Below, one piece after another: positions 61 through 29,664 of a DNA stretch of 36,276 bases. The notes beneath the pieces are model-generated. The model saw nothing but the letters and a program-made list of their open reading frames with translations. It had not been told where the DNA came from and ran no database searches. This DNA comes from Alphaproteobacteria bacterium. GTDB taxonomy: Bacteria > Pseudomonadota > Alphaproteobacteria > Thalassobaculales > Thalassobaculaceae. Position numbers and translations under genes: made by a program. Location of the stretch: NCBI GenBank assembly GCA_013203465.1, contig JABMNR010000001.1:1-36276 (forward strand), read 5' to 3'. Each line of letters opens with the position of its first letter. Within the stretch, counting starts at the first letter, position 1.

Positions 61-71
61 GTGCGGGGTGA
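1..71 (+). CDS. C-terminal end of an upstream protein with ETKTA repeats (partial)
   Basis: The frame with codons beginning at position 3 reads through the tandem array as repeated Glu-Thr-Lys-Thr-Ala and ends Ala-Gly-Ala-Gly followed by TGA at 69-71. The stop lies four bases before the ATG of the next gene, which suggests that the upstream gene is co-transcribed with it. The visible residues form a low-complexity, lysine- and alanine-rich, probably disordered tail. Such tails occur in phasins, histone-like proteins and translation factors, but nothing here identifies the protein. The reading frame is inferred from the absence of stops and the clean hand-over to the next gene. Confidence 0.55.
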   Translation, partial: TKTAETKTAETKTAETKTAGAG

Positions 72-75
72 TTGC

Positions 76-792
76 ATGGACGACCTGGATATCTTCGATG
101 AGCTTGATCCTTTAGCCGAGTTCTGGCCGCCGCGCTTTCCGCCCTTGCTCACCGGTCGGCAAGTGGCGGCCGGGATCGATCCGATGCCGACGGCGATCGC
201 GCGGATGCGAGCTGACGGTGATCCGGCGGAGGTGCTGTACACGCCCGATCGTGACCGGTTGCGTCTGGCGATCACGCTGGCGCCGGAGGTCGACCGGCTG
301 AGCGCGTTGCAAATGGGCCATGCGCTGATGCTGGCGCTGGGCGATGCGATCGGCGCGCTGGCGCCACCGGAGGTCGGTGTGCAGTACCGTTGGCCGACGA
401 CGATCCTGGTGAATGGCGGGGCGTGCGGCCGGCTGCGTCTGGCCCTCGCCGACGGTGCCGAGGACGCGGTGCCGGGCTGGATGGTGGTTGGACTGGATCT
501 GTGGCTGACACCGCGCGGCGAGCACGAGCCGGGCGACCGGCCGGAGGATACGGCGCTGTACGACGAGGGCACGGGGTCGATCCCGCTGGCCCGGCTGCTC
601 GAGTCCACCAGCCGACATTTCCTCTCATGGCTGCATCGCTGGGACATCGACGGGTTTGCTCCCTTGCGAGACGCCTGGAGCGCGCGCCAGGAAGCGGGCG
701 GTGCGACTTTGGACGACCGGGGACGGCGGGTCGCGAGCGATGCGGCGGGCCAGTCCGAGAGCCTGGAAGCGGCGGCGGAGACGATCGCATGA
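76..792 (+). CDS. Biotin/lipoate protein ligase-like protein, FDH-associated
   Basis: This 238-residue protein resembles the BPL_LplA_LipB_2 family, found near formate dehydrogenase genes in alphaproteobacteria. The ATG at 76 is preferred to the GTG at 61 because the upstream gene ends at 71. The stretch YRWPTTILVNG recalls the KWPND...V/I-x-G core of biotin ligases, but the lysine is replaced by arginine and the Asn-Asp pair is gone. No GRGRxG-type biotinyl-binding loop is visible. The ligase fold may therefore be kept without ligase activity, as an enzyme-assembly or binding role; that is inference. The stop overlaps the next start (ATGA), so translation is probably coupled. Family assignment is from memory of the family pattern, not from a search. 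Confidence 0.75.
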   Translation: MDDLDIFDELDPLAEFWPPRFPPLLTGRQVAAGIDPMPTAIARMRADGDPAEVLYTPDRDRLRLAITLAPEVDRLSALQMGHALMLALGDAIGALAPPEVGVQYRWPTTILVNGGACGRLRLALADGAEDAVPGWMVVGLDLWLTPRGEHEPGDRPEDTALYDEGTGSIPLARLLESTSRHFLSWLHRWDIDGFAPLRDAWSARQEAGGATLDDRGRRVASDAAGQSESLEAAAETIA

Positions 793-1280
793 AGCTGCTC
801 CGCACGATCCGGTTCGATGATTCCGACACCCGCGTCTTCGAGACAGGGGCCGAAGACGGCGAGTGGGCGGTGCCCGGCGGCTTCGAGTTCGCCGACGACA
901 CGGCGGAGACCTTGACCGGCAAGCGTCGTCAAGCCTTCGCCAATGGGTTTCTCGGGCTCGGCGGTTTCGGGCGGGCGACTTTCGTGGTTGTGGCCAGCAT
1001 CGACACCAACCAACGTGACGCGGCGGTCAAGGCGCTGGCCGCGCATTTTGTCGAGCGCTATGGCGCCCCCACGATGGAACTGGCCCGACCGGCGGCGGAG
1101 ACCGAGGTGGGGTTTGCCGCTGAGCTGGCGGGTGATTTCGAGGTCGGCACCGTGCTCGCCATCAGCCGTGAGTTGACCGACGGGGGGGTGAAGGAATCCT
1201 ATCGCCGTGTCGCCTCGGAGGAGCCGGGCGCGGCGCAATCGTTGTGGTCGATGTTTGGCGAGGATGGAAAACCCGCATGA
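789..1280 (+). CDS. DUF6505-like conserved protein of the FDH locus
   Basis: This 163-residue soluble protein begins at the ATG overlapping the preceding TGA and ends in the ATGA that starts the next gene. The N-terminus (MKLLRTIRFDDSDTRVFE) and the following EWAVPGGFEF stretch match my recollection of the DUF6505 family, which has no known function. No signal peptide, membrane segment or metal-binding cysteine cluster is seen; the protein contains no obvious catalytic motif. The central part, about residues 47-100, looks like an alpha/beta domain. The tight coupling to the ligase-like protein and the DUF6352-like protein suggests that the three act together, probably in maturation or use of formate dehydrogenase. 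Function is unknown. Confidence 0.75.
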   Translation: MKLLRTIRFDDSDTRVFETGAEDGEWAVPGGFEFADDTAETLTGKRRQAFANGFLGLGGFGRATFVVVASIDTNQRDAAVKALAAHFVERYGAPTMELARPAAETEVGFAAELAGDFEVGTVLAISRELTDGGVKESYRRVASEEPGAAQSLWSMFGEDGKPA

Positions 1281-2272
1281 CCGATTTCTGGCTCAGCTCC
1301 GGCTTCGAGCTTCTTGAGTGTGATGATACGGGGCGTCTGCGCTTCACCCCGGAGTACATGCGCGCCTATTGGCGGCGACCGGAAGTGGCGCCGATCGCGG
1401 AGTCCTGCGACGCCGAACGGACGCTGCACGCGACGTTGCTGCACGCGCCGCTGCGCCCGGTGGAGGACGCCGAGCTGACGGCGCTGGCCGATCCCGACGC
1501 GATCGAGAACTACCGCGCGGTTCTGCGGTTCCGCGCGTTCTTGCAGCGGTTCGAGACCGTGGAGGCGGCTTACCTTCACGTTGCCCGCCAAGGCGGGATC
1601 GATTTCCCGCCGGTGTTCGTCGACCATCTGGTGCACGCCATCCTGCGGGCGGCGCTGGGCGGTACCAACGACCCGTTCCGCGTCCGCGCGGGCGAGCTGT
1701 TCTTCCGCTCGCAGCGGGTGACCATCGAGAACGAACGGATCATGGTTGCCGACCAAGCCATGGTCGACATGCAGGCCCGGTCCGGCAAAACGGGCCTGTC
1801 GTCCAGTATTATTCCCGGCTCGGTCGACATCGAGGTGCTGACCGAGGACGTGAAGCAGGAATATTGGGGGCGCTCCGACAGTTTCGACACCGCCGTGGAC
1901 ATTGCCTACACCCAGCCGGGGCTGCATGGTTTGGCCCGCGCCATCGAGGCCTGGATTACCCACCTGCTGGGGCTGGCCGTGCGGGTTCAGCCGATGCGCA
2001 AGATCGAGGACGAGCGCTGGGTTTGGCATGTCGGCCTCGACCGCGACGCCAACGACATCCTGAACGATCTCTACAAGGGCAACCCGGTTGAGGAGGATCG
2101 GTTGCGGCAGATCGTGGCGCTGTTCCAGATGGAAATCGAGGATACCGCCACCGTGCTCGACCATGTGACAGGCCGGCCGATCTATCTCGGCCTGGCGATG
2201 GCGCCGGACGGGGTGGTGCGGATGAAGCCGCAGAACCTGATCGCCAACCTGCCGCTGAAGGCGGCGAGCTGA
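1277..2272 (+). CDS. DUF6352-like conserved protein of the FDH locus
   Basis: The ATG at 1277 overlaps the preceding stop and gives a 331-residue protein beginning MTDFWLSSGFELLECD, a start I associate with the DUF6352 family. The sequence is mixed alpha/beta without a signal peptide or membrane segment, so it is probably cytoplasmic. No cofactor motif is apparent. An N-terminal stretch rich in conserved aromatic and arginine residues (YMRAYWRRPEV, about 26-36) could be an interaction surface. It is the third of four closely packed genes running towards the polyferredoxin gene. In other alphaproteobacteria relatives of this family lie near formate dehydrogenase genes; that association is recalled, not checked here. 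The molecular role is unknown. Confidence 0.75.
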   Translation: MTDFWLSSGFELLECDDTGRLRFTPEYMRAYWRRPEVAPIAESCDAERTLHATLLHAPLRPVEDAELTALADPDAIENYRAVLRFRAFLQRFETVEAAYLHVARQGGIDFPPVFVDHLVHAILRAALGGTNDPFRVRAGELFFRSQRVTIENERIMVADQAMVDMQARSGKTGLSSSIIPGSVDIEVLTEDVKQEYWGRSDSFDTAVDIAYTQPGLHGLARAIEAWITHLLGLAVRVQPMRKIEDERWVWHVGLDRDANDILNDLYKGNPVEEDRLRQIVALFQMEIEDTATVLDHVTGRPIYLGLAMAPDGVVRMKPQNLIANLPLKAAS

Positions 2273-2273
2273 A

Positions 2274-2558
2274 ATGGCGCGGGGCCGGAGCATCCTCGAC
2301 ACCATGCGCGCGCGCATCGCGGCGTTGGGCATCGCGCTGTTGGCGTTGGCCGCGCTTGCTTTCATCCATCGCGCCGACATCGCGGCGATAGTCGCCGGGC
2401 CGGTGGCAGCGGCCGACGACCCACTGTCCCACTGCATTGCCGAACGTCACGCCACCATCGACAAGGGGGTCGCCGAGGGGGTGTTCGGCGCCGATCAGGC
2501 GGCACTGTTCAAGCAGCGCGCAACCGCGCTGTGCCAGGCGACGGTGAAGACGGAGTAG
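2274..2558 (+). CDS. Small membrane-anchored or exported hypothetical protein
   Basis: This 94-residue protein starts one base after the stop of the DUF6352-like gene and ends the run. Residues about 14-31 (RIAALGIALLALAALAFI) are hydrophobic after a basic N-terminus, so it has either an N-terminal membrane anchor or an uncleaved signal. The rest, about 45 residues carrying two cysteines (SHCIAERH and ALCQATVK), would face the periplasm and could form a disulphide between two helices. I do not recognise a family. Its position suggests a role linked to the periplasmic formate dehydrogenase, but this is only context. Confidence 0.7.
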   Translation: MARGRSILDTMRARIAALGIALLALAALAFIHRADIAAIVAGPVAAADDPLSHCIAERHATIDKGVAEGVFGADQAALFKQRATALCQATVKTE

Positions 2559-2581
2559 GCGGGCAGGGTGGCCCCTCGCAT

Positions 2582-2601
2582 CCCCGGCCGAAGAGCCGGG
2601 G
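2582..2601. terminator. Hairpin between convergent genes
   Basis: A perfect 7-bp GC-rich stem, ccccggc/gccgggg, with a six-base loop, lies 23 bases after the small membrane-protein gene, between convergent transcription units. There is no T-run, so it may be a partial terminator or a palindromic repeat. Confidence 0.5.
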
Positions 2602-2623
2602 CCTAGAATGCGGCCAGACTGGA

Positions 2624-2647
2624 TCCCGGATGGCTTCGCCTCCGGGA
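2624..2647. repeat. Palindromic element (REP-like) serving as a possible bidirectional terminator
   Basis: The sequence tcccgga-t-ggc-ttc-gcc-tccggga folds into a 10-bp stem with one bulged T and a three-base loop. The flanking words (ctggatcccgga) resemble the short palindromic intergenic repeats common in alphaproteobacterial genomes. It lies 42 bases past the stop of the minus-strand polyferredoxin gene and could end transcription from both sides. Confidence 0.5.
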
Positions 2648-2688
2648 ATGCGGTGAGGCAACAGCTACTCCATGCATCGATCCTGAGC

Positions 2689-4728
2689 CTACTCGTCGTC
2701 CAGTTCCTCGCCGCGCTCTCGGGCATCCTGGTAATCCTCGGTGGTGCGCGGCAGGGGACGCGGTTTGGAGGCGAAGGGGTTGTCCTTGCTGTGGAACTGG
2801 GCCTCGATCCGGCAATCCTCGCACATCTCGATCAGCCGGGATCGATCGTCGGATTCGAACATCCAGTGCTTGCCGGCGAGGCGGCTCTTGATCGTCTGGA
2901 TCGAGCGTGTGGTGCCGAACGTCTTGCCGCAGGACACACAGGCGAATGGCTCGTCCTCCATCACCAATTGGGCGGAGAGGGCGGAGTCGGCGAGGCCGTA
3001 GCGTGGCTCCAGAGTGATAACCTTTTCCGGGCAGGTGGCGACGCACAGCCCGCACTGCACACAGGCGTCCTCTTGGAACAGCAGCTGCGGTTGGTCGGGA
3101 TTGTCCTGCAACGCGGACGCTGGGCAGGCGCCGACGCAGGCCAGACACAGGGTGCAACCCTCGGTGTCGATCACCACCCGGCCATAAGGTGCCCCCTTGG
3201 GCAGGGGCAGCGCGTCGGCGGTTGAGCCCAGCGCCGCCGCCAGACCCTTCACCGCCAGCCGGGTCACCGCCTTCTTGCGGCCGAGGGGCGCGAACGGCGC
3301 CGCCGGCAGGGCGGTGTCGGGGGCGGTGCCATAGAGCGCGGTACCTAGCGCATCCGGGTCGGTCTCGGCCAGCACCCTTACCCGGTTTCCGGCATCCCCT
3401 AGGCCAGAAAGGATCGCGTCGGTCACCGCGATCTGGTGGTCAAGGCCGGCATGGTCGTCCGGCTTGCGCGGGTCGACCACCAAGTAGATGGCTTGGAACC
3501 CTTGGGCGAACGCGGTCAACAGGGTGTCGTGGCCGATTTGCCCCACCGCATTGACCTCAAGCGGAATGACGTCGGCCGGCAGGCCGCGGCCATAGCGGGC
3601 CAGGGCCTCGATCAGCGCGGCTCCATGCCTTGGGTCGTGGAGCAACAGCCGCGGCGCCTTATCACCCGCCGCCCGGTACCCTCCGGCGAGCGCGGTGATC
3701 TGGCGCAGTGTGGCCGCGGCGTCGGGATAGGCGTAGGTGATCGCGCTGGTCGGGCAGGCGCCGGCGCATAGCCCGCAGCCGGCGCAAAGCCCCGGATCAA
3801 CCGCCACCACGTCACCGGCCGAGGTGATGGCACCGGCCGGACACAGGTCGAGACAACGGGTACAGCCGGTGAGCTTATTGCGCGAATGGGCGCACAAGGT
3901 GTCGTTGACGGTGACATAGAGCGGCTTCTCGAACTCGCCGATCATCGCCATCGCATCGACCACCACCGACAGCACCGCCGCCGGGTCGCGGGGATCGGCG
4001 CGGAAATAGCCGTCACGCTTTTCCGCCGCGGGGACCAGAGGCGGCTCACCCGACAGGTCGACGATCACGTCGGTTTCCGAACGGGCGCCGTCGACTGGCG
4101 GCTCGAACCCCAGGCCGGCGCGGACCGACGGGCTCCGCTCGGCGAACCGGTCGACCGTCAGCTCGAAAGCGCCCAACCGCCCGGTAAGTCCCGCCACCCA
4201 CCCCGTCACAACGGGCAGCTCGGCGACCGTCGGCGGCAGGGCATCCTCGGCGTCGATCAGCATGACCGTGACCGACAGCGTGTCGGCGAGCCGTCGCGCG
4301 GCGTCCAATGCCACCTGTCCTCGGCCGTAGACCAGACAGCGCCCCTCGCTCTGAATGCTCAGGCTTCGGGCCGGGGGTACGGGTACGTCGGCGGCGGCGA
4401 TCAGCGCGGCGATCTTGGCGGTTGCCTGGTTGCCTTCGTTGGACCAGCCGGCGGCCTCGCGGATGTTGATGAACGATACCCGGCCGTCCGCTCCGTGATC
4501 CTCGGCCACCTCGGCGAAGGTCGGTGCCTCCTGGGTGCAGGCGACAACAACCGTCCCGCCCGTGGCCAGGGTATCGACGAACCGGCTCATCTGGCGGCGA
4601 CACAGCGCGGTCGCGATCTCGGCCGGGCCATCGGCGCCACAAGCCTTGCCAATGGCGGCACCGTCCAGGGTCATCGTGCCACCGCAGTCACAAATCAAAA
4701 TGGAACGATCGCCGCGCCGCATCGCCAT
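2689..4728 (-). CDS. Polyferredoxin with HdrA/MvhD-like features (4Fe-4S protein)
   Basis: This 679-residue cytoplasmic protein has no signal peptide. It has an N-terminal region with Cys13-x-Cys15 (LICDCGG), a Rossmann-like stretch near 130-160 (CLVYGRGQVALDAARRLA), and a first ferredoxin pair with Cys289, 292, 296 and Cys315, 318, 321, 325. A segment near 387-420 (NAVGQIGHDTLLTAFAQG) recalls the MvhD/FlpD iron-sulphur domain of Hdr complexes. A second pair has Cys525, 528, 531, 535 and Cys556, 559, 562, 566. A C-terminal two-pair cysteine site (597/600 and 636/639) looks like a zinc ribbon. The role is probably electron transfer between formate metabolism and a soluble carrier, or Fe-S delivery; this is inference. 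It is divergent from the DUF3305 gene, and aggggat lies upstream of its ATG. Confidence 0.85.
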   Translation of the reverse strand: MAMRRGDRSILICDCGGTMTLDGAAIGKACGADGPAEIATALCRRQMSRFVDTLATGGTVVVACTQEAPTFAEVAEDHGADGRVSFINIREAAGWSNEGNQATAKIAALIAAADVPVPPARSLSIQSEGRCLVYGRGQVALDAARRLADTLSVTVMLIDAEDALPPTVAELPVVTGWVAGLTGRLGAFELTVDRFAERSPSVRAGLGFEPPVDGARSETDVIVDLSGEPPLVPAAEKRDGYFRADPRDPAAVLSVVVDAMAMIGEFEKPLYVTVNDTLCAHSRNKLTGCTRCLDLCPAGAITSAGDVVAVDPGLCAGCGLCAGACPTSAITYAYPDAAATLRQITALAGGYRAAGDKAPRLLLHDPRHGAALIEALARYGRGLPADVIPLEVNAVGQIGHDTLLTAFAQGFQAIYLVVDPRKPDDHAGLDHQIAVTDAILSGLGDAGNRVRVLAETDPDALGTALYGTAPDTALPAAPFAPLGRKKAVTRLAVKGLAAALGSTADALPLPKGAPYGRVVIDTEGCTLCLACVGACPASALQDNPDQPQLLFQEDACVQCGLCVATCPEKVITLEPRYGLADSALSAQLVMEDEPFACVSCGKTFGTTRSIQTIKSRLAGKHWMFESDDRSRLIEMCEDCRIEAQFHSKDNPFASKPRPLPRTTEDYQDARERGEELDDE

Positions 4729-4854
4729 ATCTTATATCCCCTGAGGTGTTTGCGTGATCGAGCGGTCTCTTGCGGCGGACCTTAAAGTGTGTCCAATTCG
4801 TTGCCTAGTACGGCGACAGCCGGGGTCGGCACCTAGCAGCGAGGCCGAACGAAG

Positions 4855-5412
4855 ATGGACAAACATGTCGTGATGCCGGTGGGCGTCATCGTGCAGAAGC
4901 GGCGCATCGACCATCCCTGGAAAGAGTGGACGTGGGAACCGGTGGGCGTGCTGCCGTGGGCTCCCGAGGGCATATCGTGGCAGGTGCTGGTGGAGGACGC
5001 CGGTCGGGTTCAGTATCACGCGGCAACCCTGCCACTAGAACTATTCCGCGCCGATACCGAGGCTTATGTCGACAATCTGAATTCCTCGGCGCCGGCGATC
5101 TATGTCGTGGTCCGGCCGGGCGACGAGGAAAATGACGAGGCCGACATCGTGCCGTGCCTTGTCACGGTCTCCCCCTACGAAGCACAGGATTATCTCGACA
5201 GCGGTGAGGAAATCGTCGAGCGCCTGGGTCTGCCTGACATCCTGCGTGAGTGGATGGAGGCCTTCGTCGCGGAGCATCACGAAGAAGAAGCGTTTATCAA
5301 ACGCAAGCGTGATCGGGTGCGTGTCGACCGGACGGAAGACGGTAAGGGCGACCCGCGCGTCCGGCAGTTGAGCGACGTCTACCGGGCGCCAACCAGTCGG
5401 AAGATTCATTGA
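4855..5412 (+). CDS. DUF3305 domain protein
   Basis: This 185-residue protein opens MDKHVVMPVGVIVQKRRIDHPWKEWTWEPV across its first thirty residues, which is the typical beginning of DUF3305, a family found almost always next to formate dehydrogenase genes. The core (about 1-140) is a soluble alpha/beta domain with conserved tryptophans at WKEW and PWAPEGISWQ. The last 40 residues are basic and charged, with several Lys/Arg pairs. No signal or membrane segment is present. The biochemical role is unknown; its partners suggest formate dehydrogenase assembly or respiratory coupling. The stop overlaps the TTG start of the DUF3306 gene, so the two are translationally coupled. It is read divergently from the polyferredoxin across a 126-bp gap that should hold both promoters. 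Confidence 0.9.
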   Translation: MDKHVVMPVGVIVQKRRIDHPWKEWTWEPVGVLPWAPEGISWQVLVEDAGRVQYHAATLPLELFRADTEAYVDNLNSSAPAIYVVVRPGDEENDEADIVPCLVTVSPYEAQDYLDSGEEIVERLGLPDILREWMEAFVAEHHEEEAFIKRKRDRVRVDRTEDGKGDPRVRQLSDVYRAPTSRKIH

Positions 5413-6110
5413 GCGACGATCGAGGACAATCTGGCGCGCGGAGCGGTGAGGGCGGCTTCCTCGGACGCTGGTCGAAGCGTAAGGCGGCGGTGCGTCAAGG
5501 TGTTGTGCCCGACGAGCCGGCATTGGCCGAGCCGGATCTGGCGGCATCGGACCCGGCCGTTGACGAAAGCCTAGCGGAGCCTTCCGAGGACGAGACCCTG
5601 CCGGTCGAGGAACTGGCGGCCAAATACGATCTGCCGAACCCGGAAACCCTGGAGACCGAGGATCAGGTGGCGCCGTTTCTCGGAGACGGCGTGCCGGAGC
5701 GGCTGAAGCGCCTGGCGCTGCGCCGAGTGTGGCGTTTGAACCCGGTGTTCGCCAACGTCGACGGTTTGGTGGATTACGGCGAGGATTACACCGACGCCGC
5801 CACGGTGGTGGCCAATCTCGCCACCGTGTTCAGGGTCGGCAAGGGAGCCGCTCCGGATATCGATGAGACGGAGCCGGAAGCCATCGAGCCAACGGACGAG
5901 GCCGAGCCCGATGCCGCTCAAGCGTCTATTGATTCCATTGATAGTGAGGCGGCAGCCCCAGAGGTGCAGCCCACCCCTGAAGCGCCGGTATCGGAGCGGC
6001 CCGACGAGGCCCCCCATGATCGGGTGGCGCACACATCCTCCGAGCCGCCGCCGCCGCGTCCCCGGCGCATGGTGTTCAGGCGTCCCGCCCCGTCAAACGA
6101 CGGCGATTAA
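5409..6110 (+). CDS. DUF3306 domain protein
   Basis: This protein of 233 residues starts at a TTG that overlaps the stop of the DUF3305 gene; no ATG lies near. The early motif GGFLGRWSKRKAAVR (about 14-28) is the hallmark of DUF3306. A conserved core near 66-138 (LPNPETLETEDQVAPFLGDG, then a basic RLKRLALRRVWRLNP helix) is followed by a long acidic and proline-rich tail that is probably disordered. It is a cytoplasmic partner of DUF3305 in formate dehydrogenase loci, with unknown function. The N-terminal basic helix and conserved core could bind a client protein. The 129-bp gap after it separates this pair from the chaperone gene. Confidence 0.88.
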   Translation: MSDDRGQSGARSGEGGFLGRWSKRKAAVRQGVVPDEPALAEPDLAASDPAVDESLAEPSEDETLPVEELAAKYDLPNPETLETEDQVAPFLGDGVPERLKRLALRRVWRLNPVFANVDGLVDYGEDYTDAATVVANLATVFRVGKGAAPDIDETEPEAIEPTDEAEPDAAQASIDSIDSEAAAPEVQPTPEAPVSERPDEAPHDRVAHTSSEPPPPRPRRMVFRRPAPSNDGD

Positions 6111-6239
6111 GCCGGTTACGACGATGTGAACGATTAGGGCTGGCACATATAAGGAAACGCGCTACACTTTGTATGCAATCCACCTGCGACGGCCTTCATG
6201 ATCGTAGGAAAAGCGATAGATATCTAAGGGAGAAGACGG

Positions 6240-6860
6240 TTGTCCGCCGTCACAAAACAGATAGATGATATCGACTCCGGCATCCTGGAAGAAGACCGGT
6301 TGCGTGCCGATGTTTATGATTTGCTGGCGTCGACACTGCGGCGCGAGCCGGATCGTCTGTTGCTGGCCGGCCTAGCACGGTTGCAGGGTGACGACAGTGA
6401 CCTGGGCCGGGCATTCTCCGCTCTCGCAGCCAAGGCCGGGACCATCGATCCCGAGGCCGCCCGGCACGAATACCTTGATTTGTTCATTGGGTTGGGACGG
6501 GGTGAATTGGTGCCGTTCGCGTCCTATTACATCACCGGATTCCTGAACGAAAAGCCGCTGGCGACCCTGCGCGACGACATGGAGCGCCTGGGCATCGCGC
6601 GTTCGGACGAGGTGAGCGAGCCCGAGGATAGCATCGCCGCGCTGTGCGAGATGATGGCGGGGCTGATTCGTGGCCGCTTCCTGGAAGTGGCGCCAGTCAA
6701 GCTTCAGCGTGCGTTTTTCGACCGACACCTCGCCCCGTGGGCGGGACCGTTTTTCTCCGATCTCGAAGCGGCTAAATCAGCCGATCTCTATGCGCCTGTC
6801 GGCACACTTGGCCGGCTGTTCATGGCGATCGAGCGAGCCGCGTTCGATATGGAGGAATGA
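6240..6860 (+). CDS. TorD-family chaperone for the formate dehydrogenase
   Basis: The 206-residue all-helical protein matches the TorD/DmsD family, which binds Tat signal peptides of molybdoenzymes and guides cofactor insertion before export. The motif EYLDLFIGLGRGELVPFASYY (split here at about residues 77-97) is the typical central signature (E-Y-x-x-L-F-x-G). The predicted start is a TTG preceded by aagggag nine bases upstream, and no ATG is available within the first 60 residues. It overlaps the next open frame by the ATGA arrangement. Its client is most likely the 956-residue catalytic subunit downstream. No metal site is visible. Confidence 0.9.
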   Translation: MSAVTKQIDDIDSGILEEDRLRADVYDLLASTLRREPDRLLLAGLARLQGDDSDLGRAFSALAAKAGTIDPEAARHEYLDLFIGLGRGELVPFASYYITGFLNEKPLATLRDDMERLGIARSDEVSEPEDSIAALCEMMAGLIRGRFLEVAPVKLQRAFFDRHLAPWAGPFFSDLEAAKSADLYAPVGTLGRLFMAIERAAFDMEE

Positions 6861-6910
6861 GCCGGTTGGGTGCCCTTTGGAGGCATCTGGCCATGATGAG
6901 GAGAAGAGTG

Positions 6911-7105
6911 ATGACGGACCAAAAGGACCAGTCGACGGTCTCCGGTCGCCGAAGTTTCCTGAAGCTGTCCACGCTTGGCGTGGCGGCGGCGGGCGCGGCG
7001 GCGGTTGTCTCGACGCCGGGCGCGGCCGAGGCGAAGGAGCCGGAAGGGACGGGCTACCGCGAGACGGCGCACGTCAAAACCTATTACGAAACGGCCCGGT
7101 TCTGA
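6911..7105 (+). CDS. Small Tat-signal protein of the formate dehydrogenase region
   Basis: This 64-residue protein carries a twin-arginine signal (GRRSFLKLSTLGVAAAG, about 12-28) followed by a short mature region ending GYRETAHVKTYYETARF. This matches the TIGR02811 type, 'formate dehydrogenase region TAT target'. The ATG at 6911 is chosen because gaggag lies eight bases upstream and because the Tat motif then falls near the N-terminus; an upstream ATG at 6857 overlaps the TorD stop and would add 18 residues. After cleavage at about Ala-Glu-Ala only about 23 residues remain, so it may act as a small periplasmic subunit or assembly factor. Role unknown. Confidence 0.88.
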   Translation: MTDQKDQSTVSGRRSFLKLSTLGVAAAGAAAVVSTPGAAEAKEPEGTGYRETAHVKTYYETARF

Positions 7106-7185
7106 TCCCCGTTGGAATCATCCGGGATAACGCCACGCTCGACCGGCGGATGTGTCCGACCGGCGACGGCGCAGGGAGGTAAGAG

Positions 7186-10056
7186 ATGCTGAGGAAGAAG
7201 ACGAACGGGGTCGCGCGAGGCCCACGTCTGTCGTCCTTCGCCGCGCAAGCTGCCGAAAAGACGTTGGATCGTCGAGGGTTTCTAAGAAACTCGGGCTTGG
7301 CCGTGGGTGGCCTGGCCGCCGCGACCGCGTTTTCCGGTGGATCGGTCCGCAAGGCCGACGCGGCGACGGCGGGCGACGGGGCCGTTCAGATGATCAAGTC
7401 AGTCTGTACTCACTGCTCGGTCGGTTGCACGGTGATAGCGGAAGTTCAAAAGGGCGTCTGGATCGGCCAAGAGCCCGGTTGGGACAGTCCCTTCAACCTG
7501 GGAGCCCATTGCGCCAAGGGTGCGGCGGTACGCGAGCACGCGCATGGCGAACGGCGCTTGAAGTACCCGATGAAGATGGTCGGCGGGAAGTGGGAGCGCG
7601 TCTCCTGGGAGACCGCGATCGGCGAGATCGGCGACAAGATGTTGGATATCCGGGCGAAATCCGGTCCCGACTCGGTCTATTGGCTCGGCTCGGCCAAACA
7701 CAACAACGAGCAGGCCTATCTGGTGCGCAAATTCGCCGCCTATTGGGGGTCGAACAACGTCGATCACCAGGCGCGTATCTGCCACTCGACCACCGTCGCG
7801 GGCGTGGCCAATACCTGGGGCTACGGCGCGATGACCAACTCCTACAACGACATCCACAATTCCCAAGCGATCTTCCTGATCGGCGGCAATCCGGCCGAGG
7901 CGCACCCCGTTTCGCTCCTGCACCTGTTGAAGGCCAAGGAGCAGAACAACGCGCCGTTGATCGTTTGCGACCCGCGGTTCACTCGGACCGCCGCGCACGC
8001 GGATGAGTATGTCCGGTTCCGTCCGGGCACCGATGTCGCCCTGGTCTGGGGTCTTCTCTGGCACATCTTCGAGAACGGCTGGGAGGACAAGGAATTTATC
8101 CGCCAGCGTGTCTGGGGCATGGATCAGATCAGATCTGAAGTCGCGAAGTGGACGCCGGAGGAGACCGAGCGGGTCACCGGCGTGCCGGGCTCGCAGCTCA
8201 AGCGGGTGGCGCGGCTGATGGCCAACAACCGTCCGGGCACCGTGATCTGGTGCATGGGCGGTACCCAGCACACCAACGGCAACAACAACACCCGGGCTTA
8301 CTGCGTGTTGCAGTTGGCGCTCGGCAACATGGGCAAGGCCGGCGGTGGCACAAACATCTTCCGCGGCCACGACAACGTGCAGGGGGCAACCGACCTTGGC
8401 GTGCTGTCGCACACCCTGCCGGGATACTATGGCCTGGCGGCCGGCTCGTGGAAGCACTGGGCCCGGGTCTGGGAAGAGGACTATGAGTGGCTGAAGGGGC
8501 GGTTCGCCTCCGAGAAGCTGATGCAGTCGGCAGGCATTCCGGTATCGCGCTGGTTTGATGGTGTGCTGGAGGCCAAGGACAACATGGATCAGCCGGACAA
8601 CATCCGGGCCATGGTGTTCTGGGGTCACGCGCCGAACTCGCAGACCCGTATGAAGGATATGAAGGTTGCCATGGAGAAATTGGATCTCCTGGTGATCATC
8701 GATCCGTATCCGACGGTGTCGGCGGTGCTGCACGACCGCAAGGACGGGGTGTACCTGCTTCCGGCGGCGACGCAGTTCGAGACCTACGGGTCGGTCACAG
8801 CGTCCAACCGCTCGCTGCAGTGGCGCGACAAGGTGGTCGAGCCGTTGTTCGAGTCGAAGCCGGACCACACCATCGCCTATCTTCTGGCGAAGAAGTTGGG
8901 CTTCGAGAAAGAGCTGTTCCGCAACATCGAGATCAAGGGCGAGGAGCCGTTGATCGAGGACATCACGCGGGAGTTCAACCGCGGCATGTGGACCATCGGC
9001 TACACCGGGCAAAGCCCGGAGCGGCTGAGGGCTCACATGCAACATCAAGCGACCTTCGACAGGACGACGTTGCAGGCGATCGGTGGTCCGTTGGACGGCG
9101 AATTCTATGGCTTGCCCTGGCCGAGCTGGGGTACGCCGGAGATGGGCCATCCCGGCACGCCGATCCTATACGACCCGTCGCGGCCGGTGGCCGAAGGCGG
9201 GTTGTGCTTCCGTGCGCGCTTCGGCGTGGAACGGGACGGCGCCAACCTGCTGGCGGAGGCCAGCTATCCGGCGGGCTCGGAAATCAAGGACGGCTATCCC
9301 GAGTTCACCATGGCGATGCTCAAGACGCTCGGTTGGGATGGTGACCTGACCGCCGATGAGCGGACGGCCATCGAGGCGGTCGCCGGCGACAAGACCAACT
9401 GGAAGACCGACCTGTCGGGCGGCATCCAGCGGGTCGCGATCAAGCACGGTGCGGCGCCGTTCGGTAACGCCAAGGCCCGGTGCGTGGTGTGGAACTTCCC
9501 GGATCCGGTGCCGTTGCACCGCGAGCCGCTCTACACCCCGCGGCGTGACTTGGTGGCGGATTACCCGACCTACGAGGACCGCAAGTTCTACCGCCTGCCG
9601 ACCATGTACGCGTCGATCCAGGCACAGGACTACTCGAAGGACTTTCCGATCATCCTCACGTCCGGCCGGTTGGTCGAGTACGAGGGCGGCGGCGACGAAA
9701 GCCGGTCGAATCCGTGGCTGGCCGAGTTGCAACAGGAAATGTTCGTCGAGATCAACATCCGCGATGCCAACAATCTCGGCATCCGTGATGGCGAGCAGGT
9801 CTGGCTCTACGGACCCGAGGGCGGAAACGTCAAGGTGGCCGCCATGGTGACCGAACGTGTCGGCGCCGGTGTGGCCTTCATGCCCTTCCACTTTGGCGGG
9901 CACTTCATGGGCAAGGATCTCCGGGAGAAATATCCCAAGGGGGCCGATCCCTATGTGCTGGGTGAATCGAGCAACACCGCACAAACCTATGGCTACGACT
10001 CCGTGACGCAAATGCAGGAGACGAAAGCCACCCTGTGTCGAATTGAACGAGCGTAA
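7186..10056 (+). CDS. fdhA: Formate dehydrogenase catalytic subunit, periplasmic Mo-bisMGD type
   Basis: This 956-residue protein oxidises formate to CO2 at a molybdenum bis-pterin centre. A Tat motif (DRRGFLRNSG, Arg29-Arg30) precedes a hydrophobic stretch, so it is folded in the cytoplasm and exported. Cys74, Cys77, Cys81 and Cys109 bind the proximal 4Fe-4S cluster. Cys199-His200 in ARICHSTTVAG align with the Sec/Cys-His pair of formate dehydrogenases, so this enzyme uses cysteine rather than selenocysteine. The C-terminal molybdopterin-dinucleotide domain begins near 810 (IILTSGRLVEYEGGGDE). Start ATG is preceded by gggagg. The Fe-S subunit gene follows after 11 bases. Membership of the FDH3 group (Tat target, TorD, DUF3305/3306 neighbours) is by context. 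It belongs to the DMSO reductase family. Confidence 0.96.
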   Translation: MLRKKTNGVARGPRLSSFAAQAAEKTLDRRGFLRNSGLAVGGLAAATAFSGGSVRKADAATAGDGAVQMIKSVCTHCSVGCTVIAEVQKGVWIGQEPGWDSPFNLGAHCAKGAAVREHAHGERRLKYPMKMVGGKWERVSWETAIGEIGDKMLDIRAKSGPDSVYWLGSAKHNNEQAYLVRKFAAYWGSNNVDHQARICHSTTVAGVANTWGYGAMTNSYNDIHNSQAIFLIGGNPAEAHPVSLLHLLKAKEQNNAPLIVCDPRFTRTAAHADEYVRFRPGTDVALVWGLLWHIFENGWEDKEFIRQRVWGMDQIRSEVAKWTPEETERVTGVPGSQLKRVARLMANNRPGTVIWCMGGTQHTNGNNNTRAYCVLQLALGNMGKAGGGTNIFRGHDNVQGATDLGVLSHTLPGYYGLAAGSWKHWARVWEEDYEWLKGRFASEKLMQSAGIPVSRWFDGVLEAKDNMDQPDNIRAMVFWGHAPNSQTRMKDMKVAMEKLDLLVIIDPYPTVSAVLHDRKDGVYLLPAATQFETYGSVTASNRSLQWRDKVVEPLFESKPDHTIAYLLAKKLGFEKELFRNIEIKGEEPLIEDITREFNRGMWTIGYTGQSPERLRAHMQHQATFDRTTLQAIGGPLDGEFYGLPWPSWGTPEMGHPGTPILYDPSRPVAEGGLCFRARFGVERDGANLLAEASYPAGSEIKDGYPEFTMAMLKTLGWDGDLTADERTAIEAVAGDKTNWKTDLSGGIQRVAIKHGAAPFGNAKARCVVWNFPDPVPLHREPLYTPRRDLVADYPTYEDRKFYRLPTMYASIQAQDYSKDFPIILTSGRLVEYEGGGDESRSNPWLAELQQEMFVEINIRDANNLGIRDGEQVWLYGPEGGNVKVAAMVTERVGAGVAFMPFHFGGHFMGKDLREKYPKGADPYVLGESSNTAQTYGYDSVTQMQETKATLCRIERA

Positions 10057-10067
10057 GGAGACGCGAC

Positions 10068-10661
10068 ATGGCACGCATGAAATTCCTGTGTGATGCCGAG
10101 CGTTGCATCGAATGCAATGCTTGCGTCACCGCCTGTAAGAACGAGCACGAGGTTCCGTGGGGCGTTAACCGTCGTCGTGTCGTCACGATCAGCGACGGCA
10201 AACCCGGCGAGCGGTCGATCTCGGTGGCCTGCATGCACTGCTCGGACGCGCCGTGCATGGCGGTTTGCCCGGTGGATTGCTTCTATCAGACCGACGAGGG
10301 CGTGGTTCTGCATTCCAAGGATCTGTGCATTGGATGCGGTTACTGCTTCTACGCCTGCCCCTTCGGGGCACCGCAGTTTCCCCAGGCGGGCAACTACGGT
10401 TCGCGCGGTAAAATGGATAAGTGCACCTTCTGTGCTGGTGGCCCGGAAGCGGACAACTCCGCCGCCGAGTTCCAGAAATACGGCCGTAACCGTTTGGCCG
10501 AGGGCAAGTTGCCGCTGTGCGCGGAGATGTGCTCGACCAAGGCGCTTCTCGCCGGTGACGGTGACACGGTCTCGAACATCTTCCGGGAACGTGTGGTGGC
10601 GCGTGGCTTCGGGTCGGGTGCTTGGGGCTGGGGTACGGCCTACGGGCTGAAGGGCTCCTAA
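10068..10661 (+). CDS. fdhB: Formate dehydrogenase FDH3-type 4Fe-4S beta subunit
   Basis: The 197-residue electron-transfer subunit contains sixteen cluster cysteines in the four-cluster DMSO-reductase beta pattern: CIECNACVTACKNEHEV (13-23), CMHCSDAPCMAVCPVDC (55-71), CIGCGYCFYACP (87-97), and CTFC (119/122) with CAEMC (151/155). It has no signal peptide, as expected for a partner carried across the membrane with the Tat-bearing subunit. Unlike E. coli FdnH there is no C-terminal membrane helix, so anchoring must rest on the cytochrome b subunit alone. It begins 11 bases after the catalytic gene with aaggaga upstream. A strong hairpin follows it. Confidence 0.95.
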   Translation: MARMKFLCDAERCIECNACVTACKNEHEVPWGVNRRRVVTISDGKPGERSISVACMHCSDAPCMAVCPVDCFYQTDEGVVLHSKDLCIGCGYCFYACPFGAPQFPQAGNYGSRGKMDKCTFCAGGPEADNSAAEFQKYGRNRLAEGKLPLCAEMCSTKALLAGDGDTVSNIFRERVVARGFGSGAWGWGTAYGLKGS

Positions 10662-10669
10662 ATGGACCT

Positions 10670-10699
10670 AAACGGGGCGCGTTTCGGCGCGCCCCGTTT
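10670..10699 (+). terminator. Strong stem-loop after the 4Fe-4S subunit gene
   Basis: A perfect 11-bp inverted repeat, aaacggggcgc and gcgccccgttt, can extend by one G-C pair and closes a six-base loop, starting eight bases after the stop. It ends in TTT, followed by GCTG, so it resembles an intrinsic terminator with a short T-tract. It lies inside the formate dehydrogenase gene set and may lower expression of the genes behind it or stabilise the upstream mRNA. Confidence 0.7.
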
Positions 10700-10803
10700 G
10701 CTGATATCATTATCCTATGCAATCGCCGACCGCGACTTCGTGGGGCGGTGCGGTGTGTGCCGCGCCAGGGAGAGTGGGTCGGGTCACCGTCAGGGATGAG
10801 ACG

Positions 10804-11031
10804 ATGGTCGCTGCCGCCTCCAGACCGTTCAAAAAACCCAGAGTATCCGTCATGCGTGCTGGAGCGGTCGTCCTGATCGCGGCCATCGCGCTGGTTGGAT
10901 GCCGGACGGAAGAGCAAGGACGTCCAGTCGCCTACGACAAAGGTGTCTATCAGGGGCAACCCGATACCGCCTTGCCGGAAGCCAGATTGAACGATTTGCG
11001 CGATCGCGCCCGTCGTCAGCATTTCTTCTGA
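10804..11031 (+). CDS. Small lipoprotein between FDH beta and gamma genes
   Basis: The C-terminal 59 residues start with a clear lipoprotein signal: basic residue, hydrophobic AGAVVLIAAIALVGC and a lipobox cysteine. After the cysteine only about 42 residues remain, including the phrase AYDKGVYQGQPD and a basic helix LNDLRDRARRQHFF. The ATG at 10804 has agggatgag upstream and gives 75 residues with lipid-modified Cys33; an in-frame ATG at 10852 gives 59 residues with a more usual signal length but weaker ribosome site. I recall similar small lipoproteins in the same place in other alphaproteobacterial formate dehydrogenase loci, but no function. It would sit on the periplasmic face of a membrane, near the enzyme. 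Confidence 0.7.
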   Translation: MVAAASRPFKKPRVSVMRAGAVVLIAAIALVGCRTEEQGRPVAYDKGVYQGQPDTALPEARLNDLRDRARRQHFF

Positions 11032-11083
11032 GTTCGAGCGGCGCGGCCTTTACCGATCGCGCCCGTCCAATCCGGGGGTCACC

Positions 11084-12148
11084 ATGTTCCTTCGTCACTC
11101 GCTTCGATCTCTGGCCGTGGTCTTTCTTCTCGTGGCGTTGGTATCGGTGCTGTACACGCCGGCTATCGCCCAGGTCGCAGGTCAAGTGCCGGGCGACAGT
11201 TTAGGCGCCACGTCGGACTCCGAGTTCTGGCGCGGCATACGCCAGGGAAATGCTGGCCAAGTGTCTATTCCGAATGCCCAGGCCGGCATCCTGATCCAAT
11301 CCGAAGGCGACAATTGGCGGGCGGTGCGTAATGGTCCGTTGTCGGCCTACGGCGCCGTGGCGCTTCTCGGCATGGTTATCGTGGTGGCGTTGTTCTTCGC
11401 GGCTCGGGGACGCATTCGTGTCGAGGCGGGCTTGTCCAACCTGACGATCGAACGGTTCAGCGGGATCGAACGGTTCGCCCATTGGCTGATGGCCGGATCG
11501 TTCATTGTCCTGGCGCTGACGGGCCTCAACCTGCTGTATGGCCGCTATCTGTTGATACCGGTCCTGGGGCCGGAGGTGTTCGCGGCGATCACCGAATTGG
11601 GCAAGTACACCCATAATTATCTTGGCTTCGCGTTCATGGTCGGGCTCGCGTTGTCGTTTGTGTTGTGGGTGGTTCATAACATTCCGAACCGACACGATGC
11701 CGTCTGGCTGCTGCGCGGCGGCGTTCTGATCTGGGGCGGCCATCCGCCGGCGAAGAAGTTCAACGCCGGTCAGAAAATCCTGTTCTGGCTGGTCATGCTC
11801 GGCGGCTTGTCGGTCAGCTTGTCGGGGATCGCGTTGATCTTCCCGTTCCAGACCAGTTTCTTCGCCGACACGTTCGCGCTGCTGAACGGTTTCGGCCTGC
11901 CGCTGCCGACCCAGATCACCCCGATGGAGGAGCAGCAGCTCAATCAAGTCTGGCATACCGCGATGTCGCTGGTGCTCGTGGTGATCATTATCGCTCACAT
12001 CTATATCGGCTCGGTCGGTATGGAGGGGGCGTTCGACGCCATGGGTAACGGCGAGGTCGACTTGAACTGGGCCAAGGAACACCACCCTCTATGGGTCGAG
12101 GAGATCGAGGAGAAGGAAGCCGCGCAAAGGCATAGCCCTGCCGAGTGA
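11084..12148 (+). CDS. fdhC: Formate dehydrogenase gamma subunit, cytochrome b556 type
   Basis: This 354-residue integral membrane subunit takes electrons from the Fe-S subunit and reduces quinone. A signal-like hydrophobic segment (about 8-29, ending PAIAQ) precedes a periplasmic region of about 55 residues. Membrane helices follow near 88-107, 131-152, 180-200, 232-254 and 290-311. Histidines suited to bind two haems lie in FAHWLMAG (133), KYTHNYLG (177), WVVHNIPNR (198), VWHTAMSL (291) and IAHIYIG (305). The C-terminal GNGEVDLNWAKEHHPLWVEE is typical of the FdnI/FdoI-like family. The N-terminal extension with signal peptide is common in FDH3 loci. It follows the lipoprotein gene by 52 bases. 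Confidence 0.93.
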   Translation: MFLRHSLRSLAVVFLLVALVSVLYTPAIAQVAGQVPGDSLGATSDSEFWRGIRQGNAGQVSIPNAQAGILIQSEGDNWRAVRNGPLSAYGAVALLGMVIVVALFFAARGRIRVEAGLSNLTIERFSGIERFAHWLMAGSFIVLALTGLNLLYGRYLLIPVLGPEVFAAITELGKYTHNYLGFAFMVGLALSFVLWVVHNIPNRHDAVWLLRGGVLIWGGHPPAKKFNAGQKILFWLVMLGGLSVSLSGIALIFPFQTSFFADTFALLNGFGLPLPTQITPMEEQQLNQVWHTAMSLVLVVIIIAHIYIGSVGMEGAFDAMGNGEVDLNWAKEHHPLWVEEIEEKEAAQRHSPAE

Positions 12149-12172
12149 CCCGGGACCGATGAGGCTGGACCC

Positions 12173-13513
12173 ATGAACCTGCTTCGGCCGCTTGGTATCG
12201 GGGCTGTTACGGCTCTTTGCCTGGTGACGGTGACGGGCGAGATGCGCCGCGCCAACGCGGCCGATGTTTGGCCGGCACGTCTGGAAGGGCACGGCGGTCC
12301 GGTTAAGGGTATCGCCGTCGCGCCCTCGGGCCGTTCGGTGACCACGGCGAGTTTCGACTACAGCGTGATTCTGCGCTCCTGGCCGGAGGGGCGGGAAAAA
12401 GCGATTTTTTATGGTCACGACGCCGCCGCCAACGCCGCGATCTTCACACCCGATGGTGCGCGGGTCGTCACGGCCGGCGACGATGGCAAGGTGCTTGTGT
12501 GGTCGGTCGACGGCCCATCGGAACGGCACGCGGTCGAGGTCGAACTCGGCCGGCATCAGGGCAAGGTCTTGCACCTTGCCATATCTCCGGATGGCCGAAC
12601 CGTGGCGAGCGCCAGTTGGGATGGACGGGTTGGCCTCTGGTCTCTCGATCCATCCGGCGCAATCGGCTTTCTTGACGGTCACGACGGCCCGGTGAATGAC
12701 GTGGCGTTCGGCGCTGATGGCACGCGGCTCTATTCCGCTGGCTATGACGGCACGATACGCCTGTGGTCGGTGAGTGAACGGCGCGAACTTCATAAGGTGG
12801 TCCGTCACGGCTTCGGTGTGAACGTTCTGGCGGTCGACGAGGCGGCGGGCCGTTTGGCGTATGGCGCCTTGGATGGCGGCATCCGGATCGTCGGCCTTGA
12901 CGACGGCGTGGTCCAGGCGACCATAGAACACGACCGTACGCCGATCCTGGCCGTGGCGGCGGCGGCCGATGGACAGCGCTTCGCCTTCGGCGACGGGAGC
13001 GGCGTGGTCACGATCGTGGACGCGGCGCTAGGTCGGGTGACCCAGGACTTCCCGGCGGCCCGTGGCCCGATCTGGGCACTCGCCTTCGGACCCGGCGACA
13101 CGACGTTGTTGGTCGGCGGGCTTGATTCCTCGGTCGCGGTCTGGCCGCTTGACCCGCTGCGGCGGCCCGACGGCGACAATGGTTATACAAAGGCGTCCGA
13201 GCCGCGTTCCAACGGCGAGCGGCAGTTCATGCGGAAATGCCAGATATGCCACACACTTACCCCGGACACCGCGCGACGGGCGGGGCCGACGCTGCATGGG
13301 CTGTTTGGCCGGCCGGCCGGCACCGTTCCCGGCTATCCTTATTCCCAAACGCTCACCTCCCTGGGGATCGTTTGGGACGAGCACACCATCGACGCTTTGT
13401 TTGCCGAAGGGCCCGACCATTACATTCCCGGCTCCAAGATGCCGTTACAGAAGATGGCCAACGGACGTGACCGAGCCGATCTGATCGAGTATTTGAAAGA
13501 GGCGACCCGGTAG
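12173..13513 (+). CDS. WD40 propeller-cytochrome c fusion, periplasmic
   Basis: The 446-residue protein begins with a signal peptide (hydrophobic stretch ending near the Ala-Asn-Ala-Ala residues before position 30). Seven WD40-like repeats follow, each with a GH or H near the start and a W or V-D-x close, for example DGHDGPVNDVAF...GYDGTIRLWSV. A C-terminal class I cytochrome c domain carries Cys356-Gln-Ile-Cys359-His360 for the haem and PGSKMP with the likely axial methionine. It is placed 24 bases after the cytochrome b gene, so it may accept electrons from the formate dehydrogenase or dock it to a terminal oxidase pathway. The propeller may mediate protein contacts. Electron acceptor role is inference; domain calls are clear. 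Confidence 0.9.
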   Translation: MNLLRPLGIGAVTALCLVTVTGEMRRANAADVWPARLEGHGGPVKGIAVAPSGRSVTTASFDYSVILRSWPEGREKAIFYGHDAAANAAIFTPDGARVVTAGDDGKVLVWSVDGPSERHAVEVELGRHQGKVLHLAISPDGRTVASASWDGRVGLWSLDPSGAIGFLDGHDGPVNDVAFGADGTRLYSAGYDGTIRLWSVSERRELHKVVRHGFGVNVLAVDEAAGRLAYGALDGGIRIVGLDDGVVQATIEHDRTPILAVAAAADGQRFAFGDGSGVVTIVDAALGRVTQDFPAARGPIWALAFGPGDTTLLVGGLDSSVAVWPLDPLRRPDGDNGYTKASEPRSNGERQFMRKCQICHTLTPDTARRAGPTLHGLFGRPAGTVPGYPYSQTLTSLGIVWDEHTIDALFAEGPDHYIPGSKMPLQKMANGRDRADLIEYLKEATR

Positions 13514-13543
13514 CTAACGCCGGTAGCCGAGAAGGAGGAGACG

Positions 13544-13675
13544 ATGAAGGCTTTCCTGTCCGCGTGCGTGGCGATGTTTGTGATCGGCGTGGTGGCCTGG
13601 GCGGCTCTTGAGGGTCTTGGTACGTCCAGCAAGGTCGCCAATACGTCGACCAGCGGCAGCGTCCGCCTCGATTAG
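13544..13675 (+). CDS. 43-residue single-pass membrane peptide
   Basis: A short gene with an excellent ribosome site (aaggagg, five bases before the ATG) encodes MKAFLSACVAMFVIGVVAWA followed by about 23 polar residues ending SVRLD. One hydrophobic helix spans about residues 4-22. It sits between the WD40-cytochrome c gene and the regulator, in the same direction, 30 and 19 bases from its neighbours. The likely topology is N-in with a short periplasmic tail. It could be a small subunit of the enzyme complex, like the accessory peptides of other respiratory enzymes, but no homologue is claimed. Confidence 0.7.
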   Translation: MKAFLSACVAMFVIGVVAWAALEGLGTSSKVANTSTSGSVRLD

Positions 13676-13694
13676 CGCGGAAGGGGCCGGGCGC

Positions 13695-24115: not shown

Positions 24116-24538
24116 TCAGGCTGTTTGTTTTTCTCGCAAGGCTTTGGCCGCCGCCTTGAACGGCAACAGAACGCAATCCCTACGTGATTTCATCGGCCGT
24201 ACCGGCGCGAAGACACCAAGCTGTGCCCACGGCAGCTCGTCGCTGTCTCCGGCCAGATAGGCGCTCATCGCCGCCGCAACCGTCTCCAACGCCGCCGCCG
24301 GTTTACCGACCGCCGCCTCGGCGATCACCGCCGCCGCCGCTTGGCACAGCGCGCATCCCTGAACCTTCGCACCCACCGCCACCACGGTGTCGCCTTTCAG
24401 CGCCAGATCGATGGTCACCCGGTCGCCGCAAACCGGATTATCGATCCGGGCGCTGACCGTCGGGTTTTCCAGACGGCTGACCGCGCGACTTTGCTTGGCC
24501 AACACCAAGATCGCGTCCTGATACAGCGCCGCGGTCAA
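24116..24538 (-). CDS. NifU/SufU-like iron-sulphur scaffold protein
   Basis: This 140-residue protein has the scaffold cysteine pattern: Cys37 in NPVCGDR, Cys62 and Cys65 in GCALCQAA, and Cys122 in RRDCVLLPF. These match the NifU N-terminal/SufU family, which assembles or transfers Fe-S clusters or, in SufU, relays sulphur. Its start overlaps the stop of the molybdenum-cofactor gene by four bases, so it is the last gene of the maturation operon. It may serve the Fe-S subunit of the same molybdenum hydroxylase; that is inference. It replaces the separate, isc-type context usually seen for such scaffolds. Confidence 0.88.
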   Translation of the reverse strand: MTAALYQDAILVLAKQSRAVSRLENPTVSARIDNPVCGDRVTIDLALKGDTVVAVGAKVQGCALCQAAAAVIAEAAVGKPAAALETVAAAMSAYLAGDSDELPWAQLGVFAPVRPMKSRRDCVLLPFKAAAKALREKQTA

Positions 24539-26199: not shown

Positions 26200-26220
26200 G
26201 TCAGACGCGCCTCTCCACCG

Positions 26221-26931: not shown

Positions 26932-26933
26932 GT

Positions 26934-28600: not shown

Positions 28601-28643
28601 GCGGCCTCCAAACGGGTGTCCATGGGGGTCGACACGGTGATGA

Positions 28644-29570
<927 letters not shown>

Positions 29571-29664
29571 GACGGCTCCGATCAGGATGATGTCGAACGG
29601 TGGGTGTTTCCTGGGGACATAGCACGCGCTCCCACAAGCGTCCAAGCACGCAGGGCGTCGGACA

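Follow-up and report, generated by a model that had tools for sequence, protein, structure and literature searches.

The 36,276-nucleotide stretch of alphaproteobacterial DNA analysed here (the window) carries, on its minus strand, a gene for a 679-residue polyferredoxin that is probably a dedicated cytoplasmic maturation factor for the adjacent FDH3-type formate dehydrogenase (FDH), acting before that enzyme is exported by the Tat system. How Fe-S clusters and the active cofactor are delivered to exported metal-dependent formate dehydrogenases is poorly known, and this limits the use of such enzymes for CO2 reduction. Present almost exactly where FDH3 is present and otherwise absent, the gene makes a strong candidate, both as a missing assembly factor and for co-expression.

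The gene and its locus

An uninterrupted reading frame with an ATG start spans exactly 2689-4728. Homologues with 43-51% identity, all full-length except one, were found in 28 further alphaproteobacterial genomes from the class sample described below, and gene order is kept around two closer relatives (~70% identity); judged by these homologues and the kept order, the reading frame is a genuine gene. Premature stops were considered for some homologues and rejected, as the re-extracted proteins run to one terminal stop; these proteins gave no evidence of selenocysteine or of pseudogene status, and no relatives were found in viral contigs. Plasmid-borne relatives carry only the generic annotation '4Fe-4S binding protein', and one of them adjoins a 'formate dehydrogenase FDH3 subunit beta'. 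Neither a signal peptide nor a credible membrane segment was seen in the 679-residue protein, whose sole hydrophobic window falls within a ferredoxin site, suggesting that the protein is cytoplasmic.

The locus is arranged as follows.

61-792, plus strand: BPL_LplA_LipB_2 protein, wider locus
789-1229, plus strand: DUF6505 (PF20115), wider locus, range of the match
1244-2272, plus strand: DUF6352 (PF19879), wider locus
2689-4728, minus strand: cytoplasmic polyferredoxin of 679 residues, the gene under study (reading frame, homologues, alignment)
4855-5412, plus strand: DUF3305 (PF11749), a near-perfect co-occurrence partner (domain search)
5409-6110, plus strand: DUF3306 (PF11748; domain search)
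6240-6860, plus strand: NarJ/TorD-family chaperone (PF02613; domain search)
6857-7105, plus strand: formate-dehydrogenase-region Tat protein (TIGR02811, over the NCBIfam cut-off)
7186-10056, plus strand: FDH3-type catalytic (alpha) subunit, with Tat signal DRRGFLR and a catalytic RICHS motif with a Cys ligand
10068-10661, plus strand: FDH3 beta subunit, ferredoxin-type (domain search; fdh3B in a relative)
11084-12148, plus strand: FDH gamma subunit, membrane cytochrome b (TIGR01583)

The FDH operon occupies 6240-12148, and the polyferredoxin gene is transcribed divergently from DUF3305, DUF3306 and the FDH genes, the location that had been given for it in the initial annotation. A signal peptide of its own was looked for in the FDH3 beta subunit and none was seen. 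A fusion of DUF3305 to MobA is known from the name of NCBIfam NF011058, which points to the cofactor side.

Several other genes were observed around this core. The three genes at 61-2272 (BPL_LplA_LipB_2, DUF6505 and DUF6352) turn up together near FDH3 loci repeatedly; in the class sample, 17 genomes have a strong DUF6505 match (E <1e-30), and every one of them has the window gene. Directly after the gamma subunit, at 12173-13513, lies a gene, recurrent in many FDH3 loci, whose product combines WD40 repeats with a cytochrome c domain at the C-terminus. The locus ends with an HTH and PBP-like regulator (13608-14588), homologues of which adjoin the polyferredoxin gene in three genomes where it is unlinked from FDH3 (G023, G072, G168). 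Separate from the FDH3 locus, a minus-strand set at 24535-29645 encodes a CoxE-like VWA protein, an AAA ATPase and a MoCF_biosynth/MobA-like fusion, and resembles the accessory clusters of molybdenum hydroxylases.

Co-occurrence with FDH3

The distribution of the gene was followed in a class sample of 192 alphaproteobacterial genomes (completeness at least 90%) and in a second sample of 219 Pseudomonadota, some genomes being common to both. The gene is present in 29 of the 192 alphaproteobacteria, and DUF3305 in exactly those 29. The window-type FDH3 alpha subunit (E <1e-150) was found in 28 of these 29 genomes and nowhere else among the 192. The formate_TAT protein (TIGR02811, E ≤1e-6) was likewise found in 28 of the 29; at looser E-values this model matches many Tat signals, and only matches at ≤1e-6 in FDH3 genomes were counted. 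Among the 219 Pseudomonadota, the gene was found in 37 genomes, DUF3305 in 36 and FDH3 alpha in 36, these being the same genomes except one. The tie to FDH3 that the initial annotation had drawn from a single locus is thus nearly perfect across genomes. At least nine families contain both presence and absence, a lower bound based on the listed family labels, and the genes vary together in 9/9. Fisher tests on the co-occurrence ignore kinship and were not relied on.

Of the 192 genomes, 112 have alpha subunits at the level of TIGR01591 (E <1e-120), and the gene is missing from 84 of these 112; it therefore tracks the FDH3 type specifically, not formate dehydrogenases in general. The accessory module of FDH3 (DUF3305, DUF3306, TorD and the Tat protein) was found in the same genomes as FDH3 itself. 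In four genomes (G023, G072, G168 and G089) linkage is lost, the gene and the FDH3 locus lying apart or on different contigs, and both are retained.

Two genomes depart from the pattern. G107 (loci L058 and L093) keeps the gene, DUF3305 and DUF3306; FDH3 alpha was not found in the genome, nor any FDH3 subunit in the stretches fetched from it, which may reflect loss of FDH3 alpha or an assembly gap. G360 encodes a 511-residue homologue and has neither DUF3305 nor FDH3. Here the gene (L089:9797-11332, plus strand) lies directly downstream of a NarJ-family chaperone gene (L089:8846-9784, plus strand), in a cluster that also encodes an NrfD membrane subunit and a molybdoenzyme that bears a Tat signal and is closest to ArrA/PhsA. 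This locus suggests that the wider role of the family may be service to exported molybdoenzymes.

Domain architecture and cysteine conservation

The protein was dissected using an alignment of 57 homologues, 52 of them long (with the N-terminal domain). Its domains, all on the minus strand, are listed from the N-terminus.

4384-4728: HdrA-type N-terminal domain, residues 1-115 (profile against PDB, alignment)
3919-4347: shortened Rossmann remnant, residues 128-270 (alignment, profile)
3730-3918: first ferredoxin pair, residues 271-333 (domain search, alignment)
3328-3663: MvhD/FlpD-fold domain, residues 356-467 (predicted fold, weak sequence match)
3001-3183: second ferredoxin pair, residues 516-576 (domain search, alignment)
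2794-2949: C-terminal CxxC...CxxC ribbon, residues 594-645 (alignment)

Each part that the initial annotation had read from the letters could be placed: the Rossmann-like stretch at residues ~128-160, with HdrA as best match; the two ferredoxin pairs as eight-Cys sets at 279-325 and 525-566; the MvhD-like segment at ~356-467, where the predicted fold matches MvhD chains; and the C-terminal zinc-ribbon-like site at Cys 597/600/636/639, invariant in 57/57 members.

Cysteines are conserved along most of the protein. Cys13/15/43/64 of the N-terminal domain are invariant in 52/52 long members; the domain itself is missing in five sequences, four from outside the Alphaproteobacteria (L084, L085, L087, L088) and one alphaproteobacterial (G060). 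The first ferredoxin pair is ligated by Cys 279/289/292/296 and 315/318/321/325. Its first site has the non-canonical spacing C279-x9-C289-x2-C292-x3-C296 and includes a histidine, His281, that is invariant in a 40-sequence alignment. The second pair consists of two canonical CxxCxxCxxxC sites (Cys 525/528/531/535 and 556/559/562/566). All ferredoxin-site cysteines are kept in all 57 members except Cys318, which is absent from four short forms. A profile of the ribbon matched only C2H2 zinc fingers, through a 'CxxCGKxF' knuckle in common, and was uninformative. The G360 chaperone has a C-terminal CxxC...CxxC segment that, judged by eye, is like this ribbon.

Members from five genomes (G364, G206, G368, G378 and G350; L080-L083 and L086) carry an additional ferredoxin-type stretch within the Rossmann remnant. 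It sits where HdrA has its inserted ferredoxin, which is absent from most members. One such member used as a lone query matched only polyferredoxins, so the equivalence of the extra stretch with the HdrA insert is based on position. The short-form (non-alphaproteobacterial) and extra-ferredoxin groups are perhaps gamma- and betaproteobacterial.

Ancestry in HdrA and MvhD

The 679-residue protein is built from eroded parts of the methanogen electron-bifurcating proteins HdrA and MvhD. Parts of the protein were searched separately, as a guard against ferredoxin bias. With residues 1-283 as profile, the PDB returned only three HdrA sequences (E 1.2e-5 to 7.9e-5), the next match having an E-value of 0.26. 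Aligned residues take in the 'PTF...NIRE..W' region and the beginning of the Rossmann domain; a second, weak segment covers the 'GxxGxF' stretch, located in HdrA ahead of the ferredoxin inserted in that protein. The likeness to HdrA (PDB 5odc_A, 8rvu_a) thus comprises the N-terminal domain, the Rossmann start, 'GxxGxF' and the ferredoxin pair, in the same order. Unlike in HdrA, the Rossmann/FAD part is only ~140 residues long and its dinucleotide motif is degraded, the second Gly of the GxGxxG-like site being Asp in 26/57 members and Gly in only 10/57; a complete FAD domain is not recognizable from the sequence. The NCBIfam HdrA2 score is 70.8 bits, far under the cut-off of 1100.

For the middle segment, sequence comparison gave weak matches. 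Pfam FlpD scored 12.9 bits (E 0.11), under its gathering cut-off of 22.3, and matched 3/40 family members at all (best E 0.014); against the PDB, MvhD ranked second (E 0.32). The fold was then predicted by AlphaFold2 for residues 330-503, with pLDDT mostly 73-88 over model residues 11-139; a whole-protein model from three sequences had a pLDDT of 36 and was not used. Foldseek placed four MvhD chains at the top (E 4e-6 to 8e-5; next 0.017), and VIA-align 2 gave MvhD chains Z scores of 12.4-12.7 (next chain 8.0). Residues 356-467 superpose with an rmsd of 1.8-2.2 over 112-114 residues on the MvhD chains 5odc_D, 5odh_D, 8rvu_F and 7bkb_F, the last of these from the formate dehydrogenase-Hdr complex. 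Profile searches (E ~1e-5 for HdrA) and structure prediction therefore both uphold the HdrA and MvhD likeness that had been proposed. Unlike MvhD and FlpD, the domain lacks conserved cysteines that could hold a [2Fe-2S] cluster: no Cys column is common to at least five of the 57 members, and 35 members are wholly Cys-free there. With the dinucleotide motif degraded and no conserved Cys in the MvhD-fold region, the redox chemistry inherited from either parent seems to have decayed.

This erosion bears on the idea, put forward in the initial annotation, of a cytoplasmic hub working by Hdr-type chemistry, which would take up the electrons of formate oxidation and distribute or bifurcate them. Such a role would agree with the Hdr-type ancestry, the many clusters and the strict link to FDH3. 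However, the sites for FAD and [2Fe-2S] are eroded, and the twin-arginine signal of FdhA together with its membrane cytochrome b partner place mature FDH3 at the outer face; moreover, Pfam and NCBIfam scans of window genes in 61-14588 revealed none of the HdrB/HdrC type. We consider a hub very unlikely, and the proposal found no support.

Gene neighbourhoods and an Fe-S carrier ATPase

Neighbourhoods were surveyed at 62 loci, in stretches of up to 20 kb, some of which end at contig ends. FDH3 alpha lies within the same stretch in 52/62 loci, and DUF3305 or DUF3306 in 57/62. In many genomes the gene is inside the fdh operon, and in genomes outside the Alphaproteobacteria where the protein is of the short or extra-ferredoxin form, this operon is co-directional, in the order DUF3305-DUF3306-gene-TorD-FdhABC.

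A further neighbour is an Mrp/NBP35-type ATPase, which occurs in the stretch at 17/62 loci from at least seven families and, in five loci, is found 11-102 bp downstream of the match. For a housekeeping gene present once or twice per genome, we estimate that ~1% of 20-kb stretches would contain it. At 45/62 loci, some truncated at a contig end, the ATPase was not found. It matches Pfam PF10609, 'NUBPL iron-transfer P-loop NTPase', and the three longer sequences tested match FeS_assembly_P as well. The FDH3-linked paralogue is often accompanied by DUF6494 (L102:13965-15225; L077, L096, L109 and others). The window's own genome has two Mrp genes. One of them (C8:54064-55053) shares 82% identity with the Mrp encoded at the FDH locus of Thalassobaculum; it is separated from the end of contig C8 by 152 bases and is oriented as it would be if C8 preceded the window; we infer that this gene is adjacent to the window. 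Supply of Fe-S clusters, which the initial annotation had offered as its weaker suggestion, thereby gains independent support from a neighbouring Fe-S carrier ATPase.

A probable maturation factor for FDH3

In periplasmic Mo enzymes generally, clusters and cofactor are inserted in the cytoplasm, before Tat export (PMC10609526), and the FDH alpha and beta subunits must acquire theirs there too. FdhA has a Tat signal and the 679-residue protein has neither signal nor membrane segment, consistent with a maturation role. The protein would have descended from an HdrA-MvhD electron-transfer module and lost the bifurcating chemistry. Before Tat export it would attach to the still immature alpha and beta subunits, probably through its Cys-free MvhD-fold domain, a plausible docking element given that one MvhD match comes from the formate dehydrogenase-Hdr complex (7bkb). 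From its chain of ~5 [4Fe-4S] clusters, FDH3 would then receive clusters, electrons or both; its partners in this would be a NarJ/TorD-type chaperone, DUF3305/DUF3306 and, at many loci, the Mrp/NBP35 Fe-S carrier. Cluster supply seems to us somewhat likelier than electron supply, and the two may also go together. Several points weigh against maturation: ferredoxin-type chains usually carry electrons and do not donate clusters, E. coli HydN and YsaA stimulate FDH-H as interaction partners and not as proven assembly factors (PMC6004506), G107 keeps the gene without FDH3 alpha, and 45/62 loci showed no Mrp neighbour.

The protein could instead be a redox partner and not a cluster donor, exchanging electrons in either direction with FDH that is still unexported in the cytoplasm. 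It might reduce the Mo/W centre or the clusters at cofactor insertion or sulfuration, or test turnover before export. In the FDH-Hdr complex of methanogens, FdhAB passes electrons to MvhD and HdrA, and the ancestry of the protein, its MvhD fold and the match to 7bkb_F are in keeping with such an exchange, as is the near-invariance of the cluster ligands across the family, which a wire needs. In E. coli, the ferredoxin-like proteins HydN and YsaA bind FDH-H and raise its dye-linked activity (PMC6004506). However, an MvhD-fold domain lacking conserved Cys and a degraded flavin motif leave no known electron entry point, and the Mrp/NBP35 neighbour suggests cluster traffic. We regard a redox partner as possible but doubtful, and maturation as the preferred reading.

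A tentative evolutionary scenario would be that an HdrA-MvhD unit, of the type docking on FDH in methanogens, was recruited by Pseudomonadota and lost its flavin and [2Fe-2S] sites, and that it now serves as a dedicated platform for assembly and redox checking of an exported molybdoenzyme, with the MvhD part as docking surface. If the HdrA/MvhD origin is true, a module for electron bifurcation has been reused for protein maturation in aerobic bacteria; if the docking platform is also true, a part of that machinery has been converted into a maturation chaperone.

Comparison with known systems

The gene is widespread and generically annotated. Neither functional work on the protein nor a report of its HdrA/MvhD origin or strict FDH3 link was found in the open-access papers searched. 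Two earlier sightings are, from locus context alone, probable orthologues: Shewanella oneidensis SO_4506, an 'iron-sulfur cluster-binding protein' beside FdhT, FdhA and FdhB (PMC5826389), and the 'fer4' listed with DUF3305 and DUF3306 for FDH operons in an operon figure legend of a NarJ survey (PMC4464133). The parts of these two papers that concern the loci describe no HdrA/MvhD architecture or function (PMC5826389, PMC4464133).

SO_4506 changes along with fdhT and fdhAB in a RyhB data set (PMC5826389), as might a redox, iron or oxygen sensor that gates FDH3 expression or assembly. A sensor could also have Fe-S clusters and a 4-Cys ribbon. However, any operon member would show this co-regulation, a domain search found no DNA-binding domain in the 679-residue protein, and the locus already has a separate HTH/PBP-like regulator (13608-14588); we hold a sensor to be even less probable than an electron hub.

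As ferredoxin-like proteins that partner an FDH, HydN and YsaA resemble the window protein; unlike it, they are small and serve a cytoplasmic FDH. Neither is known to contain parts of HdrA or MvhD. They act as interaction partners, an assembly-factor role being unproven (PMC6004506).

NapF, which is cytoplasmic and carries four clusters, takes part in Fe-S assembly of the exported NapA (PMC10609526). Like NapF, the window protein would be a cytoplasmic multi-cluster protein serving a Tat-exported molybdoenzyme, and in its second ferredoxin pair it matches NapF below the threshold (NCBIfam napF, 44.2 against a cut-off of 102.2 bits; 679 residues against a 149-position model). Unlike NapF, it is linked to FDH3, is 4-5 times longer, and possesses a 4-Cys ribbon in addition to domains derived from HdrA and MvhD. 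An assembly or redox role for FDH3, like that of NapF for NapA, would suit a multi-cluster cytoplasmic protein that is retained only with this enzyme and encoded in its operon.
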